A DNA stretch of 25,630 nucleotides from a virus. The notes under the pieces are model-generated. The model had not been told where the DNA came from. It saw only the letters and a list, made by a program, of their open reading frames with translations, and did not search any database. Of this stretch, positions 2,976 through 25,230 are shown piece by piece (within the stretch, counting starts at the first letter, position 1; each line of letters begins with the position of its first letter). The DNA lies in IMG/VR virus record IMGVR_UViG_3300033571_009498, positions 1-25,630 of that record; one strand, given 5' to 3'. The translations under genes and the position numbers were made by a program.

Positions 2976-3040
2976 TTTATGCCTCATTGAGGCATAAAAA
3001 CAAAACAATGAGGCATAAAAACAAAACAATGAGGCATAAA
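2976..3040 (+). repeat. Palindrome plus 21-bp phased direct repeats (four half-sites)
   Basis: The half-site TGAGGCATAAA occurs at 2988-2998, 3009-3019 and 3030-3040, exactly 21 bp apart (two helical turns). An inverted copy, TTTATGCCTCA, at 2976-2986 forms a perfect 11-bp palindrome with the first. Each spacer is A-rich (about AACAAAACAA). The array covers the start of the next gene and also encodes a repeated heptapeptide, MRHKNKT. A 12-codon ORF (2959-2997) overlaps the previous stop as ATGA and ends within the array. It is probably a protein-binding array or iteron set. Confidence 0.65.
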
Positions 3041-3408: not shown

Positions 3409-4017
3409 ATGCCACGATTCGTTTCATCATACGGGGAAGTAGCCAAGCAACTTGGAGTAAGTCGCCAAGCCATAGTGAATTGGCGCAAGGCTCACCCTGA
3501 CTCTCCGGCGCAGCTACCGAATGGCGACCATGATGTAAGTAAATGGCGGGAATTTGTAAAAATCAAGGGACTAGGCCAGAGAGACGACGAGCTGCCGACA
3601 AACATCAGAGACACGGACGGCGATGATGATGAAGGGCCAGTGACTAAAGAAGACTGGAATTGCGCCCTAATCAGAGAGAAAGTCCGACGCGAGCGGATTA
3701 AAGCGGACCTAGAGAGTCAGAAAGCCGTTTTAGTTGACGACCTAGAAGCCAACCTCGGCGGGCTACTTGCAGCGGTGCAAAACGGAATGGATTCCTTCCC
3801 CGATAGAGCGGCTCCAATGGTTCAAGGCTTTAGCGACGTTCCCGAAATCTCGCGTATCCTCCACGGCGAAATGCAAAGCACGCTCGGCGCATTGCAGGTT
3901 GCGGACTTTGAGAAAGCCATAGAGGAAACGCCGGAACACCTGAGAGACGAAGTTCTCGCAGCTTTGAAACGGATTGGCGGGTTTTACCTTAACAGAACAC
4001 AGATAATCGAAACATGA
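3409..4017 (+). CDS. terS: Terminase small subunit
   Basis: The 202-residue product begins with a helix-turn-helix at about residues 9-27 (YGEVAKQLGVSRQAIVNWRK), as in lambda Nu1 and related small terminases that recognise the packaging site. It continues with an acidic linker (RDTDGDDDEGP), a charged helical oligomerisation segment (REKVRRERIKADLESQKAV) and a helical C-terminus expected to contact the large subunit. Length and domain order fit Nu1-type subunits, which often have about 180-210 residues. The large subunit is encoded two genes downstream. It begins the late operon after a 122-base gap. The ATG has no strong Shine-Dalgarno. Assignment rests on HTH, coiled segment and position. 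Confidence 0.85.
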   Translation: MPRFVSSYGEVAKQLGVSRQAIVNWRKAHPDSPAQLPNGDHDVSKWREFVKIKGLGQRDDELPTNIRDTDGDDDEGPVTKEDWNCALIREKVRRERIKADLESQKAVLVDDLEANLGGLLAAVQNGMDSFPDRAAPMVQGFSDVPEISRILHGEMQSTLGALQVADFEKAIEETPEHLRDEVLAALKRIGGFYLNRTQIIET

Positions 4018-4292: not shown

Positions 4293-6379
4293 TAAACTAC
4301 CGATCAGCTGCCGAAGTCCTAAAGCGCATTCAGCGTGACATTATCCGCCCGCGTCCGTTGCTGAAGTATTGGGAGTGGGCAGACAAGCACGTCTCTATTC
4401 CCCACGAAGCAAGCGGACCCATGCCGGGGAGACTCAACACCGGACGCTTCCCCGTGTTTCGCGGATTGTTCGATTTAGCGCAACAGGGACACGTTCACTT
4501 CATTTCCCTTTGCGCTTCGATTCGCGTAGGTAAGACTCTGTTTTCCATCATCGTCATGCTTTATTGGCTAGCGGAGAAAGCCGGTAGTGCGGTATGGCTT
4601 GACCCATCGGGAGGGAGCGCGAAGAAAGTCAGCAAGTCGGAAATCGACCCGTTCATTCAGCTTTGCGAGCCGGTTAAACGCTTGGCAATTATCGGGCGGA
4701 CAACGTGGACTAGCCTTTGGAAAACATTCAAGGGCAAAATCCTTCGGTTCATCGGCGCGGGCGAAGAGGCAAACTTGCACGGATTCAACGCAGAGCTTGC
4801 TATCATTAACGAGTTCGATTCGTGCAAGCAGGCCGTCGTGAAGAAAAAGGCGAGCGAGGACGGAAAAGAGGACTCGTCATCGGCTGACAAGATAATCGGA
4901 CGCACGCAGCTTTTCCCGTTCACACGGAAAATAATCGAGAACAGTTCACCTCGGCAGGCTGGCGAGTTTTCCCCGATATGGCAGAGCTTTCTGCGCGGGA
5001 GTCAGCACTATTGCTATTTGCCGTGCCCGCATTGCAGCGCGGAGGCTAAGGCGATAGGGAACGCTAGGCCATTGCCGGAAAAGATGCCGGTCGGATGGAG
5101 CAAGGAAAGCATGGATCTGCACCTTGCAGGCTGGCAGCGTTTGGTTTTCACGAATGACCCCGCTTATCAGCCCGCGAAGCACCTTCCATTTGACCACGAC
5201 TTAATGCCAATCGAGGGCACGATGGAGGAGCGGCTTGGAAGAATCGACTTTTCATGCGCGGAGATATGGGCCGAAGCAATATCACCGCAGGATGCGACGA
5301 AAACAATCCGAGTCAAAACCGGATATGACCAAGATAAAGTAGAGCATCAGACCACGTATCAATGCGGGCACTGCGGAAAGCAAATTGAGCAACAGTCACT
5401 TCGCTGGATGCTGAATCGATACCGCTGGCAGGCGCACAATCCTAGCGCACCAAAAGACCGCATTTCCGCTCATTTGTGGCGAGGATACGCACCTCCGGAA
5501 CTTGGCGGAGGATGGAACCACATCGCGAAGGCGTTTCTTGAAGCGAAGTCAGACATTGGGAAGCTGATAACCTTCACGAACATGAGCCTTGGGTTGCCTT
5601 TCATTCGTGCAGGGGCGGCGATTAACGAAGGCGACCTTGACCGCGTTCTGGCGAGAACCCCGATGAGATATGTGAAGGGGCAAATCCCGCGAATGCCGGA
5701 GATGCTGACAATCACGGCGGACAAGCAAAAGGACCACCTTTACTACGTCATACGGGCATGGGGAGTCATATGGGAATCACCGGACATGCCGACTTGGAGT
5801 GCGCTTGTCGATTGGGGAACTGCGATGAGTATGGACGAGTTGACCGTTCTCGCCGGCGAGAAGCCGGACGGAAGCGGGAAGTATCGCACGTTCACCTACA
5901 CGGAGAACGAAAAGACATACGAGTTCCGTTGCATCGCCGGATTGATTGACTCCGGCAACGACCAAGACGTTGTTTTCGAGTTTTGCCACAAGCGCACCCG
6001 CATTTTCGACCCGTATCGCGGAAGCGGACCAGTGCAAACAAACTGGAATCGTATTCGTCCGCGTGACGTGTATGACGACCAGCTCAAACTTTGGCTTTGT
6101 TGGTCCAGTCACTACGCGGAAAGGCTGTATTACGACTGCATCAAATACGGACAGGCCGGAGATGACCCCGTTTATTGGTGGCTACCCGTCAACATAGACG
6201 ATGAATACAAGCATCAACTCACGGACGAATACAAAGACGGTGACGAGTGGGTATCACGCCGAAAGATGAACCACCTTGGCGACTGCGAGAAGATGCAACT
6301 CCCGCTTTCGGAGCTTGTGGAAAGCCGATTGACACTATTACGAGAAAAACGTAGAAACGAGAAAACAGAACAGAAATGA
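4289..6379 (+). CDS. terL: Terminase large subunit, lambda GpA family
   Basis: This 696-residue packaging motor and nuclease starts at GTG 4289. The GpA-type opening is present (WADKHVSIPHEASGPMPGRL, about residues 30-49). A variant Walker A, ASIRVGKT, lies at about 76-83, and a Walker B-like strand followed by acidic residues (AIINEFD) at about 171-177. Two Cys pairs (CPHC near 248, CGHC near 360) resemble the zinc-binding patches of this family. The C-terminal half contains the nuclease region, including DKQKDHLYYVIRAWG and GLIDSGN with conserved acidic residues. About 700 residues is usual for GpA proteins (lambda A is 641). It uses ATP to translocate DNA into the prohead through the portal and cuts genome ends. 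It is coupled by overlaps to both neighbours. Confidence 0.93.
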   Translation: MINYRSAAEVLKRIQRDIIRPRPLLKYWEWADKHVSIPHEASGPMPGRLNTGRFPVFRGLFDLAQQGHVHFISLCASIRVGKTLFSIIVMLYWLAEKAGSAVWLDPSGGSAKKVSKSEIDPFIQLCEPVKRLAIIGRTTWTSLWKTFKGKILRFIGAGEEANLHGFNAELAIINEFDSCKQAVVKKKASEDGKEDSSSADKIIGRTQLFPFTRKIIENSSPRQAGEFSPIWQSFLRGSQHYCYLPCPHCSAEAKAIGNARPLPEKMPVGWSKESMDLHLAGWQRLVFTNDPAYQPAKHLPFDHDLMPIEGTMEERLGRIDFSCAEIWAEAISPQDATKTIRVKTGYDQDKVEHQTTYQCGHCGKQIEQQSLRWMLNRYRWQAHNPSAPKDRISAHLWRGYAPPELGGGWNHIAKAFLEAKSDIGKLITFTNMSLGLPFIRAGAAINEGDLDRVLARTPMRYVKGQIPRMPEMLTITADKQKDHLYYVIRAWGVIWESPDMPTWSALVDWGTAMSMDELTVLAGEKPDGSGKYRTFTYTENEKTYEFRCIAGLIDSGNDQDVVFEFCHKRTRIFDPYRGSGPVQTNWNRIRPRDVYDDQLKLWLCWSSHYAERLYYDCIKYGQAGDDPVYWWLPVNIDDEYKHQLTDEYKDGDEWVSRRKMNHLGDCEKMQLPLSELVESRLTLLREKRRNEKTEQK

Positions 6380-6971: not shown

Positions 6972-7519
6972 ATCAACTCAGCCTCTCATTCTACGACGAA
7001 GCAGCCCTCAAAAAGATGCCGGAAACGGACATCATCGACGCCATTCTCGGACGGTATGCGCCCTTGGAGCGTAACATCATGCCCGCAGCAATGGCAGCGG
7101 TTGGGGCGGCGATTCAGTCCACAGCCGGACTAGGGCAGCTATTGGAGGAGATTTACCAGCGACACAAGGGCGGGAAATGGGAAGAGATTTACGCCAAGCT
7201 CAACATGCCGTTCACGTTTGTTCAGGCGAACCGATTCCGCCGGCAATGGGTTAACCGCGACAAGGTGATTTTTGCGAGCGAACCTTCCCCGCTGGCACTC
7301 ACAAACGCTTACCGCCACGCGGAGCTATTGCCAGAACCGGAACCGCAGCCAAAAAGCGATTTGCCTCCGATGCCGTTCACGCTCAAGTTTTCGTTTGACA
7401 CTTCGCGAGAAGTCAACACTTGGGGAAAAGAGAACGTGGTGGACTTTTTACAGCGCACGGAGAAAATTGAGGTTTTGAGGACAAAGGCAAAGGCGTTTAT
7501 TTCAAATGGAGCAAAATGA
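6968..7519 (+). CDS. Hypothetical protein, 183 residues
   Basis: The start at 6968 is chosen because it overlaps the micro-gene stop as ATGA and opens a natural N-terminus (MNQLSLSFYDEAALKKMPET). An earlier in-frame ATG at 6914 would add an Arg-rich segment translated from within the membrane-peptide gene. The protein is helical, with an Ala-rich stretch (AAMAAVGAAIQSTAGLGQLL), then KGGKWEEIYAKLNMPFTF, reminiscent of proteins that choose partners through a HTH-like fold. A Pro-rich linker and a C-terminal helical part follow. Its stop overlaps the phosphoesterase start. Function unknown. Confidence 0.65.
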   Translation: MNQLSLSFYDEAALKKMPETDIIDAILGRYAPLERNIMPAAMAAVGAAIQSTAGLGQLLEEIYQRHKGGKWEEIYAKLNMPFTFVQANRFRRQWVNRDKVIFASEPSPLALTNAYRHAELLPEPEPQPKSDLPPMPFTLKFSFDTSREVNTWGKENVVDFLQRTEKIEVLRTKAKAFISNGAK

Positions 7520-8499
7520 AAACATTCACTAAAAAGAGCGTAACAGAACAGTTCTCCCGCAAGTTTCCTAATCACGGAAACCTCACGCTTGCAAAGGCAA
7601 TGATAAGGACACACCCGACGCTTTTTCCGTCGCTAAACGCAGCATATTGCTCGGTGCGGAGAGTAAGAGGAGTGAAAGGAAACGAGGATAGAAAATGCGC
7701 GACAGACAAAAAGCCTTTGCGGTTTTCGGAGCAAATGCCGCCGTCTAAAATCGAGAAGCGTGAAGACTTCGTGATTGATTCAAAAGAGCGCATTCTTGTT
7801 TTGTCAGACATTCACTTTCCGCATCACTCAACCGAAGCGTTGCAAGCGGCGATTGAATACGGACAGAAGATAAAGCCGACAATCGTTTATTTAAACGGAG
7901 ACACGGTGGAGAACTACGCGCTTTCACGATGGGAGCCGGACCCTCGGAAACGAGACTTGGCCGAAGAAATCAAACTGGCAAGGCAGGGGTTGCGATGGAT
8001 ACGTGAGCGGTTCAAAAAGGCGCGGATTGTGTTCAAGCACGGAAACCACGAGGCGCGGAGTGAGGATTATTTGAAACGGAAAGCACCGGAACTTCTAGGA
8101 GTTGAGGATTTCCAGCTTAGTCGTTTGCTACGCTTTGACGACCTCGGGATTGAAGAAGTGGAACTTTTGCAGGTGGCAAAGTTTGGCAAGCTCAACGTGA
8201 TTCACGGGCACGAGCTACCGAAGGGAATCAGCAATCCAGTGAACGCAGCGCGTGGAATGTTTTTGCGCTTGTCGGAGACTTCGATGTGTGGGCACTTCCA
8301 TCAAACTAGTCAGCATACGGAGGCGCGGGGAATTAAAAAAGAGGTTGTTTCATGCTGGACAACGGGTTGCCTCTGCGGATTGCAACCGGATTACGCAATC
8401 ATCAATAAATGGAATCACGGATTCGCGACGGTCGAGACGGAAACAGTCGGAGACTTTGAGGTTAAGAATCTGAAAATCATCGGCGGAAAGGTGTTCTAA
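7516..8499 (+). CDS. Calcineurin-like metallophosphoesterase
   Basis: The 327-residue product carries the full set of metallophosphoesterase motifs: D98-x-H100 (LSDIHFPHH), GD at 128-129 (NGDTVEN), GNHE at 176-179, H230 (HGHE) and GHFH at 259-262. Two metal ions are expected at these sites. About 90 residues precede the catalytic domain, and their basic N-terminus (TKKSVTEQFSRKF) could contact nucleic acid. Family members hydrolyse phosphodiesters or phosphomonoesters in nucleotides, nucleic acids or proteins; the substrate is not readable here. It lies in the packaging module between terL and portal, with ATGA overlap upstream and a zincin gene one base downstream, so co-expression with head genes is likely. 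Confidence 0.85.
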   Translation: MKTFTKKSVTEQFSRKFPNHGNLTLAKAMIRTHPTLFPSLNAAYCSVRRVRGVKGNEDRKCATDKKPLRFSEQMPPSKIEKREDFVIDSKERILVLSDIHFPHHSTEALQAAIEYGQKIKPTIVYLNGDTVENYALSRWEPDPRKRDLAEEIKLARQGLRWIRERFKKARIVFKHGNHEARSEDYLKRKAPELLGVEDFQLSRLLRFDDLGIEEVELLQVAKFGKLNVIHGHELPKGISNPVNAARGMFLRLSETSMCGHFHQTSQHTEARGIKKEVVSCWTTGCLCGLQPDYAIINKWNHGFATVETETVGDFEVKNLKIIGGKVF

Positions 8500-21993: not shown

Positions 21994-23666
21994 CGCTTTC
22001 GACAACAGAAATAACGAATACGGTAACGGTAACGGAAAACCCCGATTCCATCACTATCGTCGCGGACAACTTTACGCAAACGGGCGGAAGCGGAACAGTA
22101 ACGAGCGTTTCAGTCACAAGCGCAAACGGTGTTTCCGGAACGGTAGCAACGGCGACAACTACGCCAGTTATTACGCTGACGCTAGGCGCAATCACGCCTA
22201 CAACGGTCAACGGGCTAACTCTGACTGCATCGACCGGCACGGTAACAATCACGAACCTGAAGACGTTCGCGGTTACGAACACGATTACGCTTTCCGGAAC
22301 TGACGGAAGCACGTTGAACATTGGCGCAGGTGGAACACTTGGAAGCGCGGCATTCACCGCTGCCACTGCTTACCTTGCGGCGGCGAGCAATCTTTCCGAC
22401 TTGGCGAGCGCATCGACGGCACGCACAAACTTAGGGCTAGGAACGCTCGCAACGCAGAGCGGCACATTCAGCGGAACAAGCTCAGGGACGAATACCGGCG
22501 ACCAAACTAGCATCGTCGGAATAACGGGAACCTTTGCTCAATTCAACACGGCGGTTACTGACGCGAACCTTGCGAGGACAACGGGGACAAATTCATTTAC
22601 GGGATTCCAGACGCTTGATTCAGGAGCCATAATCGGAACGACCGATGCAACTGGCTATTTGGTTTTCAATCCCGGTGACGAGTCTGGATTTACAGTTAGC
22701 GTCGAATACGGGAGTCCTAAGACAGACTCTAGAACATGGTCCTTCCCTGACGCGGACGGTGTTTTTGTTGGAGAATCGACCGCCCAGGCATTAAGCAACA
22801 AGACAATCAGCGGTGCATCCAACACTATCACAAACGTGTCGCTCACAACCGGCGTCACTGGCACGATGCCCGTCGCCAATGGTGGCACCGGCGCGACTAC
22901 GCTCTCGGGGCTAGTGCTTGGCAATGGCACCTCGGCAATGACTGCCGTGACGACCAACGCCGCTCTTTATGCGGCCGTTACCGATATGTATGTCGATCAC
23001 ACCGTCGCAATCATGGATGAGGATTTTCTCGGCGGCACGAACGGCGACGGGCAGGCGGGCACGCACGGCGTCCGTTACGGCACGATCAGCGGATCAAACT
23101 CCATCGCCTACATTGCAGGTGGTGCCGACAACCCTGGACAGCTTCAGCTCTCGACCGGAGCTAGCTCAGGCAACGCTGGCAGCTTGTATTTTGGGGGATC
23201 AGGGCTTACCCCTTACATAATTGGTGCCAACCATTTTGAAGTCCGCATAACTTTCAAGCTCAACCAGACGACCGCGACCAAACTCCGAATCGGACTAATA
23301 AACGACTACGCCACAGTCACTCCAGGGCGCGGCGAGTATCTGCGATACGACACGTCGCTCGGGGACACCAATTTCATGTACGTCGTGAAAGATGGTGGCT
23401 CAGAAACAGCGACCTCGACCGGCATCGCGGCTGATACGAACTGGCACACCCTGCGCATCCGCACAATTACGCCGGGCAGCTACATCTACGGAATGAGCAT
23501 GAACACAAGCGGCGGGTCCTTTGGCGCGGAAACGCAGGTCACAAACACAAATAGCGTCGGAGGGGTCACGCGCTACATCGTCGGCATCATCGGAAACGCC
23601 GCCGTTGCGGCCTCGAAATCCTTCATCCTCGACGCCGTTAAAATGCGCTGGAAATGCGCCCGATGA
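21990..23666 (+). CDS. Mosaic tail fibre with lectin-like C-terminal domain, 558 residues
   Basis: The first 260 residues are Thr/Gly/Ser-rich beta repeats (SGTVTSVSVTSANGVSGTV). Collar-like motifs follow (LGLGTLATQSGT, SGTNTGDQT, TAQALSNKTISGASNTI). At about residues 290-300 stands the conserved fibre motif GTMPVANGGTGATT, a frequent recombination joint. The C-terminal 200 residues (DEDFLGGTNGDGQAGTHGVR, then NHFEVRITFKLNQTTATKLR and NWHTLRIRT) look like a concanavalin-like jelly roll that binds glycans. Codon use changes near 22850: GGC, GCC and ACC rise sharply against GGA, GCA and ACA before it. The tip is probably acquired from another phage. Confidence 0.75.
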   Translation: MTLSTTEITNTVTVTENPDSITIVADNFTQTGGSGTVTSVSVTSANGVSGTVATATTTPVITLTLGAITPTTVNGLTLTASTGTVTITNLKTFAVTNTITLSGTDGSTLNIGAGGTLGSAAFTAATAYLAAASNLSDLASASTARTNLGLGTLATQSGTFSGTSSGTNTGDQTSIVGITGTFAQFNTAVTDANLARTTGTNSFTGFQTLDSGAIIGTTDATGYLVFNPGDESGFTVSVEYGSPKTDSRTWSFPDADGVFVGESTAQALSNKTISGASNTITNVSLTTGVTGTMPVANGGTGATTLSGLVLGNGTSAMTAVTTNAALYAAVTDMYVDHTVAIMDEDFLGGTNGDGQAGTHGVRYGTISGSNSIAYIAGGADNPGQLQLSTGASSGNAGSLYFGGSGLTPYIIGANHFEVRITFKLNQTTATKLRIGLINDYATVTPGRGEYLRYDTSLGDTNFMYVVKDGGSETATSTGIAADTNWHTLRIRTITPGSYIYGMSMNTSGGSFGAETQVTNTNSVGGVTRYIVGIIGNAAVAASKSFILDAVKMRWKCAR

Positions 23667-23923
23667 CTATGGAACCTTCAATGCAAATTTTCGAGTGGCT
23701 GCACAAGCTCGGCGGCATCGGGTATGTCCTAATCGGCGGCGGCGGATTCTTGTTCACGTGGTATCTACGAAAGAACATTGAAGAACAAAGGGCGATGCGC
23801 GAGGAATTGCGGCATTTCAATCGCATTCTCCTCGGGATGCTGTTGAGCAAGAACAGCGAACCGAAAATGCAGGAACTTGCGGACTTCATTTTGGCGACAG
23901 AACAAAAACAGATTTCAAAATGA
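23663..23923 (+). CDS. Holin-like small membrane protein, 86 residues
   Basis: The start at 23663 overlaps the fibre stop as ATGA; an earlier in-frame ATG at 23654 is possible. Residues about 17-35 (GGIGYVLIGGGGFLFTWYL) are a single membrane span followed by RKN and a charged helical tail of about 45 residues. It begins the lysis cassette. It may be a class III-like holin or a single-span inner-membrane spanin partner. The positively charged stretch just after the span suggests a cytoplasmic C-terminus, which favours holin-like. It is coupled to the receiver gene downstream (ATGA at 23920). Confidence 0.6.
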   Translation: MTMEPSMQIFEWLHKLGGIGYVLIGGGGFLFTWYLRKNIEEQRAMREELRHFNRILLGMLLSKNSEPKMQELADFILATEQKQISK

Positions 23924-24354
23924 AAGCCTTAAACATCGAGGACAACGAGGACGAGCGGGACATCATGCTGTATAATTTGCGGCGACTTGGATTCGATTCC
24001 ATTGTTGAGCGGTCAACGCTGAAAGCAGCGATTCAGACGCTCACGGAGGCAAAGGAGCGCGGCGAGTGCTTTGATTTGATAACGCTGGATTTGAAACTTC
24101 AAGACTCGACTCCGGAAACGACCCTTGCGAGCCTGCCAATTATCGCATCGTTTGCGGCATCGGCACCGATTATGGTTGTGACCGGACATCCTTCAAGGCT
24201 CACAGAAAACGTGCGGAGCTACGCGCAGGGGTTGCTGCAGAAGCCATACAACTTCTACGACTTCACGAACGAGGTGAACGCAACGATGCGGAGCAAGAAA
24301 TACCGCCCGCTGTTTCCCGTCGCGCTGTTGATTCCACGGCTTAGACTCGCATGA
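23920..24354 (+). CDS. Stand-alone CheY-like response regulator receiver protein
   Basis: The 144-residue protein carries every receiver hallmark at canonical spacing: acidic pair E7 and D8 after the first strand (ALNIEDNEDE), phospho-acceptor D57 after the third (FDLITLDLKL), T88 (IMVVTGHPSR) and K108 before a Pro (LLQKPYNF). CheY has D12, D13, D57, T87 and K109. There is no DNA-binding or enzymatic output domain; the last 25 residues are basic and hydrophobic (RSKKYRPLFPVALLIPRLRL). A phosphorylated receiver normally acts by binding a partner. Both ends overlap lysis genes as ATGA, so it would be made with holin and endolysin. A host histidine kinase or phosphodonor could be its input; that part is inference. 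Confidence 0.85.
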   Translation: MKALNIEDNEDERDIMLYNLRRLGFDSIVERSTLKAAIQTLTEAKERGECFDLITLDLKLQDSTPETTLASLPIIASFAASAPIMVVTGHPSRLTENVRSYAQGLLQKPYNFYDFTNEVNATMRSKKYRPLFPVALLIPRLRLA

Positions 24355-24545
24355 CCTACCGCCGGATATGCTACTTTTTGTCGTCGTCTCTCACGGTTCT
24401 TTCGCAGCATCCGAACGCGCCAGCCGACGCATGGGAGATTGCAAAGCTCGTATCAGCCTGCATCGTCGGCGGACTGATTGCGCTTCGTGCGTTGGAATCA
24501 GTTCCGGATACAAAGCCGAAAACGGATTCACTTGATTTAAAATGA
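24351..24545 (+). CDS. Small membrane protein of the lysis cassette, 64 residues
   Basis: The protein starts MTYRRICYFLSSSLTVLSQH and has a hydrophobic N-terminus, possibly a signal-anchor at residues 6-18. A clearer membrane span lies at about 32-47 (KLVSACIVGGLIALRALE), followed by a polar tail. It lies between the receiver gene and a tiny lipoprotein gene, overlapping both. It could be a second holin, an antiholin or an inner-membrane spanin. Its short C-terminal part has too little coiled coil to span the periplasm, so holin or antiholin is preferred. Confidence 0.6.
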   Translation: MTYRRICYFLSSSLTVLSQHPNAPADAWEIAKLVSACIVGGLIALRALESVPDTKPKTDSLDLK

Positions 24546-24670
24546 AGCTGATTTTCATCCTACTAACTGCCGCTCTATCCGGATGCGTCACACGCGCCAC
24601 GATTCACGCTAGAACCTGCATTGTGACAGTCTCGCCAAGCGTGGAAATAAAGGCTACACCGCTGCCATGA
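24542..24670 (+). CDS. 42-residue lipoprotein, candidate o-spanin
   Basis: The gene is only 129 bases and overlaps both neighbours as ATGA. The peptide begins MKLIFILLTAALSGCVTRAT: a basic residue, a hydrophobic signal segment and a lipobox LSGC with the lipidated Cys at position 15. The mature part would be about 28 residues ending EIKATPLP. A tiny outer-membrane lipoprotein next to the endolysin is the typical form of an o-spanin (Rz1-like), which joins inner and outer membranes at the final lysis step in Gram-negative hosts. The usual Pro-rich mature region is poor here, and no clear i-spanin is visible. Confidence 0.65.
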   Translation: MKLIFILLTAALSGCVTRATIHARTCIVTVSPSVEIKATPLP

Positions 24671-25230
24671 ATACAGAACAAATCAAAGCCATTCAGAAAC
24701 GCATTGGAACGGAACCGGACGGATTCTGGGGACCAAAAAGCATTCGCGCCGTGCAGTCGCACCTTCGCGGAATGATGCCGGACAGCAACCCGTGGCCGGA
24801 CACTTCGCAAGAGGCTCTCACGAAGTTCTACGGGAAAGCAGGCGACGAGACGCGCCTTGTGAAGATGCCAGTTCCGGCAGGCGTAACGGTTCAATACGAC
24901 GGGCAGAACGTGACAACTATCCGATGCAACGAACGAGTCGCGGAAAGCCTTTCGCGCATTCTTGTCGCCGTCTCGAAAGTTGCACCGCTGATTCTTCGGG
25001 AGTATGCTGGCGTCTATAACAACCGACCGATGCGCGGCGGTTCTCTGCCGTCATTGCACGCCAGAGGCGCAGCGATAGACCTTGCACCGGAAACGAACGG
25101 GAATCACGCTGCATGGCCGATTGCGAGCGATATGCCGCTGGAAGTAATGGAGTGTTTTGCGCGTGAAGGATGGAAGTCTGCGGGAGCTTTTTGGGGTAGG
25201 GATTCCATGCATCACGAAGCAACGCGCTGA
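24667..25230 (+). CDS. Endolysin: peptidoglycan-binding domain plus M15 peptidase
   Basis: Residues about 3-35 (IKAIQKRIGTEPDGFWGPKS, then IRAVQSHL) form a PG_binding_1 repeat. Residues about 90-187 form an M15-type D,D- or L,D-peptidase with SLHARGAAIDLAP (H131 and D138 as zinc ligands) and DSMHHEA (H182, the third ligand of the MH.E motif). The general-base acid is probably the Glu in EGW or in HHE. Length of 187 residues is normal for two-domain phage M15 endolysins. There is no signal peptide, so release needs the holin. The domain order, binding module first, is less usual in Gram-negative phages, where it is often C-terminal, but it is well known. Confidence 0.9.
   Translation: MNTEQIKAIQKRIGTEPDGFWGPKSIRAVQSHLRGMMPDSNPWPDTSQEALTKFYGKAGDETRLVKMPVPAGVTVQYDGQNVTTIRCNERVAESLSRILVAVSKVAPLILREYAGVYNNRPMRGGSLPSLHARGAAIDLAPETNGNHAAWPIASDMPLEVMECFAREGWKSAGAFWGRDSMHHEATR

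Follow-up and report, generated by a model that had tools for sequence, protein, structure and literature searches.

A single-domain receiver in a phage lysis cassette and its possible role in the timing of lysis

The time at which a phage lyses its host sets the burst size, and it is usually explained by the chemistry of holins and by antiholins. Why, then, should a gene for a CheY-like receiver lie among phage lysis genes? The question is raised by the window, by which we mean the whole stretch of 25,630 bases analysed here (virus record IMGVR_UViG_3300033571_009498), which according to profile searches belongs to a tailed phage with a lambda-type portal and a phrog_283 major capsid protein. 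The initial annotation had placed a complete receiver within the lysis cassette of this phage, between a holin-like gene and a second small membrane gene.

Composition of the lysis cassette

Directly after a tail-fibre-like gene, positions 23669-25230 carry five genes on the plus strand (Table 1). Because all four junctions from TM1 through the endolysin gene overlap by ATGA, which for REC means shared bases with the end of TM1 at 23923 and with the start of ORF2 at 24351, and thus translational coupling to both neighbors, the five genes TM1, REC, ORF2, lipoprotein and endolysin almost certainly form one translational unit. REC is embedded in a lysis cassette, with the M15-type endolysin and the Rz1-like lipoprotein downstream of it. 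Spanin profile matches of the lipoprotein are weak (phrog_456, E=0.13; phrog_1275, E=0.19), and its lipobox and position fit an Rz1-like o-spanin. The same lipoprotein is kept in the related contigs L007, L008 and L023, and one of similar size occurs in L009 and in the more distant L109. ORF2, for which a second hydrophobic segment is possible at the N-terminus, was found in L003 and L007 and is missing from L008, L009 and L023; in L008 and L009 REC directly abuts the lipoprotein gene. Elsewhere in the window, positions 7516-8499 encode a calcineurin-like metallophosphoesterase (phrog_221, E=6e-44) within the structural gene region, and at 2987-3040 the start of an ORF consists of MRHKNKT repeats, a short coding tandem repeat.

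Table 1. Positions of the lysis cassette genes and of receiver residues in the window
Feature	Position	Strand	Description and basis
TM1 (putative receiver partner)	23669..23923	+	84 aa; ORF list, start kept in relatives
REC, single-domain receiver	23920..24354	+	144 aa; ORF, profiles, alignment, model, dN/dS
REC acidic pair E7/D8	23938-23943	+	alignment
REC phospho-acceptor D57	24088-24090	+	alignment
REC T88	24181-24183	+	alignment
REC K108	24241-24243	+	alignment
ORF2, small membrane protein	24351..24545	+	64 aa; strong hydrophobic segment at residues 30-48
Candidate Rz1-like outer-membrane spanin (o-spanin)	24542..24670	+	42-aa lipoprotein, lipobox LSGC
Endolysin, M15-type peptidase	24667..25230	+	187 aa; Peptidase_M15_4 27.6 bits (cut-off 25), phrog_17001 endolysin E=8e-18

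The placement of REC between two small membrane genes, with its ATGA overlaps, was found as initially annotated, whereas the upstream gene is not a proven holin: profile searches returned no holin match for TM1, and a more fitting description is a small one-TM coiled-coil protein whose tail is predicted to be cytosolic. TM1 most likely begins at 23669, where the start is kept as M[ED]P in L007, L008, L009 and L023; in-frame ATGs also lie upstream at 23654 and at 23663, where the codon overlaps the tail gene by ATGA. The protein has one Gly-rich N-terminal hydrophobic segment, read by eye as LGGIGYVLIGGGGFLFTWYL and followed by RKN, and then a charged, probably coiled-coil tail. This segment was read from the sequence, its KD mean of about 1.2 being under the threshold of 1.4 used by the script, and the positive-inside rule predicts an N-out/C-in topology. 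The proteins at the TM1 position in L008, L009 and L023 are 25-26% identical to TM1 of the window.

Identity and conservation of the receiver

Residues 6-118 of REC match the PF00072 (Response_reg) profile with E=2.5e-6 and 28.0 bits, just under the curated cut-off of 30.2 bits, and REC also matches phrog_731 (E=3e-7). Its relatives, obtained via an endolysin search and a search with the REC alignment, exceed the PF00072 cut-off (L008, 40.7 bits; L009, 35.8 bits; L023, 41.4 bits). E7/D8, D57, T88 and K108 are at canonical spacing, as had been annotated, and in the alignment D8, D57, T88 and K108 are invariant in all five distinct family members, position 7 being E or D among these five and D in the more distant of them; RECs of the distant group are only about 30% identical to that of the window. 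Position K-3, by reading L105 in the window and V or I in L008 and L009, is not the usual aromatic switch residue, a departure from the canonical CheY-like switch.

An AlphaFold2 model of REC was built from the five-member family alignment, a single-sequence model (pLDDT 45) having been discarded. Its mean pLDDT is 63, with residues 1-60 at about 80 and the C-terminal half at low confidence, and the order of its strands and helices is that of a receiver (b1 2-6, a1 10-22, b2 27-31, a2 34-46, b3 53-57, a3 65-78, b4 84-88, a4 96-105 and a5 112-123; beta 5 not resolved). In a Foldseek search with this model the PDB matches, among those listed, were receivers or receiver-containing proteins, and VIA-align gave Z up to 10.3 over 102 residues. 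The top PDB matches of REC in phmmer were to designed repeat proteins and were treated as an artefact. The ORF coincides exactly with the one initially annotated, and profile searches detected no second domain, neither DNA-binding nor any other output domain; REC of the window is a genuine single-domain receiver. Its basic hydrophobic tail (about residues 119-144), modelled at low confidence, had been proposed as a membrane anchor; it is kept only in the closest relatives and is absent in L008, L009 and L023, so that anchoring is not general.

Like CheY, Spo0F and DivK (PF00072), REC consists of one receiver domain without output and shares with them the acidic pair, acceptor Asp, Thr/Ser, Lys and fold. 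Unlike them, it is phage-encoded in a lysis operon, presumably acts on a membrane protein of the phage, and has a tail of its own of about 20-26 aa; the window genus also lacks the aromatic residue at K-3.

Comparison with the sister phage L003 (IMGVR_UViG_3300020044_006524) revealed 33 synonymous and 3 nonsynonymous differences in REC (dN/dS 0.023), with dN/dS values of 0.026 for TM1, 0.066 for the endolysin and 0.12 for ORF2, and over several comparisons the receiver dN/dS was 0.02-0.13. REC is under strong purifying selection. The two phages are 90% identical in DNA over 1.73 kb from TM1 on, and the tail genes upstream of TM1 in L003 are unrelated to those of the window at the DNA level, i.e. 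they have been replaced. Likewise, in L023, L024 and L025 TM1, REC and the lipoprotein gene are intact and the M15 endolysin has been swapped for an unrelated CHAP protein (4452-4949 in L023), with the swap point at the lipoprotein boundary. The TM1-REC-lipoprotein block persists in divergent relatives through exchange of both the endolysin and the tail genes. Two further observations concern DNA near these genes. A run of 124 nt at 24268-24391 of the window, which reaches from the 3' part of REC into the first codons of ORF2, is identical in L003, the dS of REC elsewhere being about 0.5, and could reflect recent recombination or an additional constraint at the nucleotide level. In L013 an apparent HNH-endonuclease-like ORF (4525-5004) immediately precedes the endolysin of a related lysis cassette.

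Among 73 further records with related endolysins, PF00072 was absent from 72 (0 of 40 and 1 of 33 in two sets), the exception being L109, and the receiver is therefore dispensable for lysis as such. No REC was found near the endolysin relatives of Amphritea, a Verrucomicrobiia MAG and a Fimbriimonadaceae MAG, which are only 39-44% identical to the endolysin, and a Verrucomicrobiota-group genome with a 53% match to the capsid had no receiver or related endolysin within the stretch read.

Receivers in the lysis modules of other phages

The synteny of the window was found again in related phages, and in other lineages, too, the neighbor of the receiver is a one-TM coiled-coil protein; all homologues found that possess D57 keep the linkage to lysis genes. 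Queries of phage records that began with a CheY and continued with its matches (tblastn) led to cultured Alteromonas phages. Each Alteromonas phage receiver that a receiver query turned up, with no lysis genes asked for, adjoins a one-TM partner, and apart from that of V19 each has recognisable or likely lysis genes around it. The window set and L109, found in part through endolysins, were not counted as unbiased.

The uncultured L109 (IMGVR_UViG_3300022936_000012) has the order receiver, one-TM coiled-coil protein, small membrane protein, lipoprotein and endolysin. In R8W and H4 (Autographiviridae) a class II holin is followed by a one-TM coiled-coil protein, REC, a membrane protein and the terminase, and in R9Y1, as in L141-L143, a one-TM coiled-coil protein precedes REC and a GH108 endolysin. 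PB15 and XX1924 carry an XhlA-type protein, REC, a likely lysis enzyme (annotated as carboxypeptidase in PB15 and without annotation in XX1924) and a GTA_holin_3TM protein; XX1924 was the phage used for the XhlA and GTA_holin profile searches, its partner matching phrog_937 (XhlA-type) with E=1e-12, and the PB15 proteins are near-identical. In V22 (Myoalterovirus) the order is amidase, one-TM coiled-coil protein, REC, Rz-like spanin and two-TM protein, and in PT15-A5 (Schitoviridae) it is partner, CheY-like protein, Rz-like spanin, two-TM protein and annotated endolysin. In V19 a one-TM protein is paired with a receiver that lacks both the acceptor Asp and the Lys (L135 3498-3950, possibly a pseudoreceiver), with no recognised lysis gene alongside. 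Partner and REC are coupled by ATGA in most of these other lineages, and acceptor D and K are present in all lysis-linked receivers aligned other than that of V19.

Some of these receivers have been described under other names. R8W gp48 (L130 4013-4474) is annotated as a PhoB DNA-binding regulator and V22 ORF30 (L139 11750-12199) as a hybrid histidine kinase-response regulator, and they were published as PhoB and as a class II auxiliary gene, respectively (PMC8228385, PMC7289586); each is actually a single receiver domain in a lysis module. Profile searches found no DNA-binding domain in the receivers of R8W (gp48), V22, R9Y1, PB15, XX1924 and PT15-A5, and the reading of R8W gp48 as PhoB or a low-phosphate gene (PMC8228385) conflicts with its single-domain make-up and is not supported. 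For the PB15 receiver (L134 3489-3887), an ATG located 21 bases 5' of the annotated start at 3510 shares ATGA with the preceding gene, and this earlier ATG restores the first strand of the receiver. Other candidates were set aside: tblastn matches of REC in Listeria, Salmonella, Staphylococcus, Enterococcus and Acinetobacter phage records are probably host DNA (unannotated or very large records), and Stenotrophomonas phage Bhz63, with a PhoP-like regulator of some 240 aa, and contig MW462191, with a PhoP, encode longer regulators that had no lysis genes next to them in the part read. Komp_PAO1_1, an ambiguous case, was also set aside.

Most partners carry their hydrophobic segment at the N-terminus, the XhlA-type ones at the C-terminus. 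Where the script identified this segment correctly, positive charge flanks it on the side of the coiled coil; the partners of the window, V22 and PT15-A5 fell below the script threshold and the call for L009 chose another segment, so all four were read by eye. Since positive charge flanks the segment on that side, the coiled coil is predicted to be cytoplasmic, and a cytoplasmic receiver could therefore reach the partner in all cases. In V22 and PT15-A5 the Rz-like spanins have the reverse charge pattern.

Homology between one-TM partners of different lineages was not detectable (hhalign E 0.13-0.16), no XhlA or hemolysin phage-family profile matched TM1 of the window or of L009, and a tblastn match of L008 TM1 in PT15-A5, to the gene that immediately precedes the CheY-like one (E=8), is suggestive only. 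The window REC family and the R8W/R9Y receivers are related by profile (hhalign E=1e-6), as all receivers are. From these comparisons it seems likely that receivers were recruited independently in several phage lineages.

A possible input of host signalling into lysis

We propose that REC is a late-expressed accessory subunit of the lysis machinery that acts on the tail of TM1, or on a TM1-holin complex, and that phosphorylation of D57 shifts the timing of lysis, a reading to which we give even chances. REC and TM1 would be translated together, late in infection, and REC would bind the cytosolic coiled-coil tail of the TM1- or XhlA-type protein, or its complex with the holin. D57 would receive its phosphate either from the host, through a histidine kinase or a phosphorelay, or from acetyl phosphate, since the seven related contigs, possibly fragments, showed no histidine kinase (HATPase_c). 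Phosphorylation would alter REC binding and thereby advance or delay permeabilisation of the membrane, resulting in a post-translational input of the host signalling state into lysis. More broadly, several lineages may have independently recruited phosphorylatable receivers through which a phosphorelay or acetyl phosphate gates the lysis clock after translation, that is, a two-component-controlled lysis switch; this wider proposal is tentative, and we place it somewhat short of even chances. A role in lysis is favored by the receiver fold and residues, by the strong purifying selection on REC, by the cohesion of the TM1-REC-lipoprotein block through the endolysin exchange of L023 and the tail-gene exchange of L003, by the recurrence of the REC/one-TM pairing, mostly ATGA-coupled, in other lineages, by the predicted cytoplasmic side of the coiled coil, and by the lack of any output domain. 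Counting against it are the undetectable homology of the partners across lineages, because of which the one-TM/REC architecture could partly be a general property of lysis cassettes, the restriction of receivers to L109 among the 73 further records, the V19 receiver without D57 and K, the lack of a kinase in the possibly incomplete contigs, and the missing aromatic switch residue in the window genus.

That same missing residue and the low Pfam score of REC would also fit a scaffold that works independently of phosphorylation, in which the receiver fold is a binding module assembling or restraining the TM1-type protein and the phospho-site is vestigial or has a structural role. The V19 receiver, paired with its one-TM protein though acceptor D and K are gone, indicates that such a pairing can apparently persist without phosphorylation. 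However, D and K are kept in all other aligned lysis-linked receivers, even in the roughly 30%-identical members of the window genus, which would be difficult to account for if the site were neither phosphorylated nor at least bound to metal, and we consider a pure scaffold unlikely. Alternatively, the receiver could be directed at the host, draining or competing with a host phosphorelay or acting like PhoB to reprogram the host, its position in the lysis cassette being incidental. Stand-alone receivers can serve as phosphate sinks, and the published assignments of R8W gp48 and V22 ORF30 would accord with such a function, but none of these receivers has a DNA-binding domain, a slot among late lysis genes with a mostly ATGA-type overlap with a lysis-type membrane protein would be poor timing for a takeover, and the same neighborhood recurs in several phage lineages. 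A host-directed function thus appears quite improbable, and phosphate titration in particular is weakly disfavored because REC is placed late and coupled to lysis genes. Finally, a host receiver picked up by chance, as might be expected from the abundance and ready acquisition of bacterial receivers and from its absence in most relatives of the window phage, is already disfavored and very unlikely given the low dN/dS, the identical genomic slot in several lineages and the survival of the TM1-REC block through endolysin and tail exchanges.

The proposed action of REC on the lysis timing of TM1-type proteins can be compared with known systems. R8W gp48 resembles REC in being flanked by a one-TM coiled-coil protein and a second membrane protein, with ATGA coupling and next to the holin; it differs in being only about 17% identical and in having the canonical aromatic switch, and the R8W endolysin, unlike that of the window, is encoded elsewhere in the genome (g43, PMC8228385). 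In the PBSX module of Bacillus subtilis, a small coiled-coil one-TM protein, XhlA, lies beside holin and endolysin, an arrangement to which the PB15 and XX1924 partners correspond, and XhlA is needed together with XhlB (holin) and XlyA (endolysin) for lysis-type release (PMC5589764). In contrast, PBSX as described has no receiver, and TM1 of the window is not a detectable homologue of XhlA and has an N-terminal hydrophobic segment. The idea of coupling lysis to a host two-component pathway has a precedent in phages of Alphaproteobacteria, for which lytic deferment through the regulator CtrA was proposed (PMC9437464). There, host CtrA binds phage promoters, whereas the window phage encodes its own receiver among the lysis proteins, and the mechanism proposed for REC would be a post-translational counterpart to this promoter-level coupling.

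Receivers and lysis cassettes are each well known, and literature searches within open-access full texts found no account of the two combined, in line with the impression of novelty in the initial annotation. From the recurrence of receivers beside lysis-type membrane proteins in unrelated viruses it would seem that in some phages the time of lysis is open to influence from host signalling. If the proposed mechanism is true, it would be a categorically new mode of regulating lysis, in which a phosphorylatable receiver is a stock part of lysis modules and host signalling acts on the phage directly, at the post-translational level. It would also explain genes that have been listed as auxiliary metabolic genes, such as PhoB in R8W and CheY in V22, and the proposed role is testable in cultured lytic Alteromonas phages.
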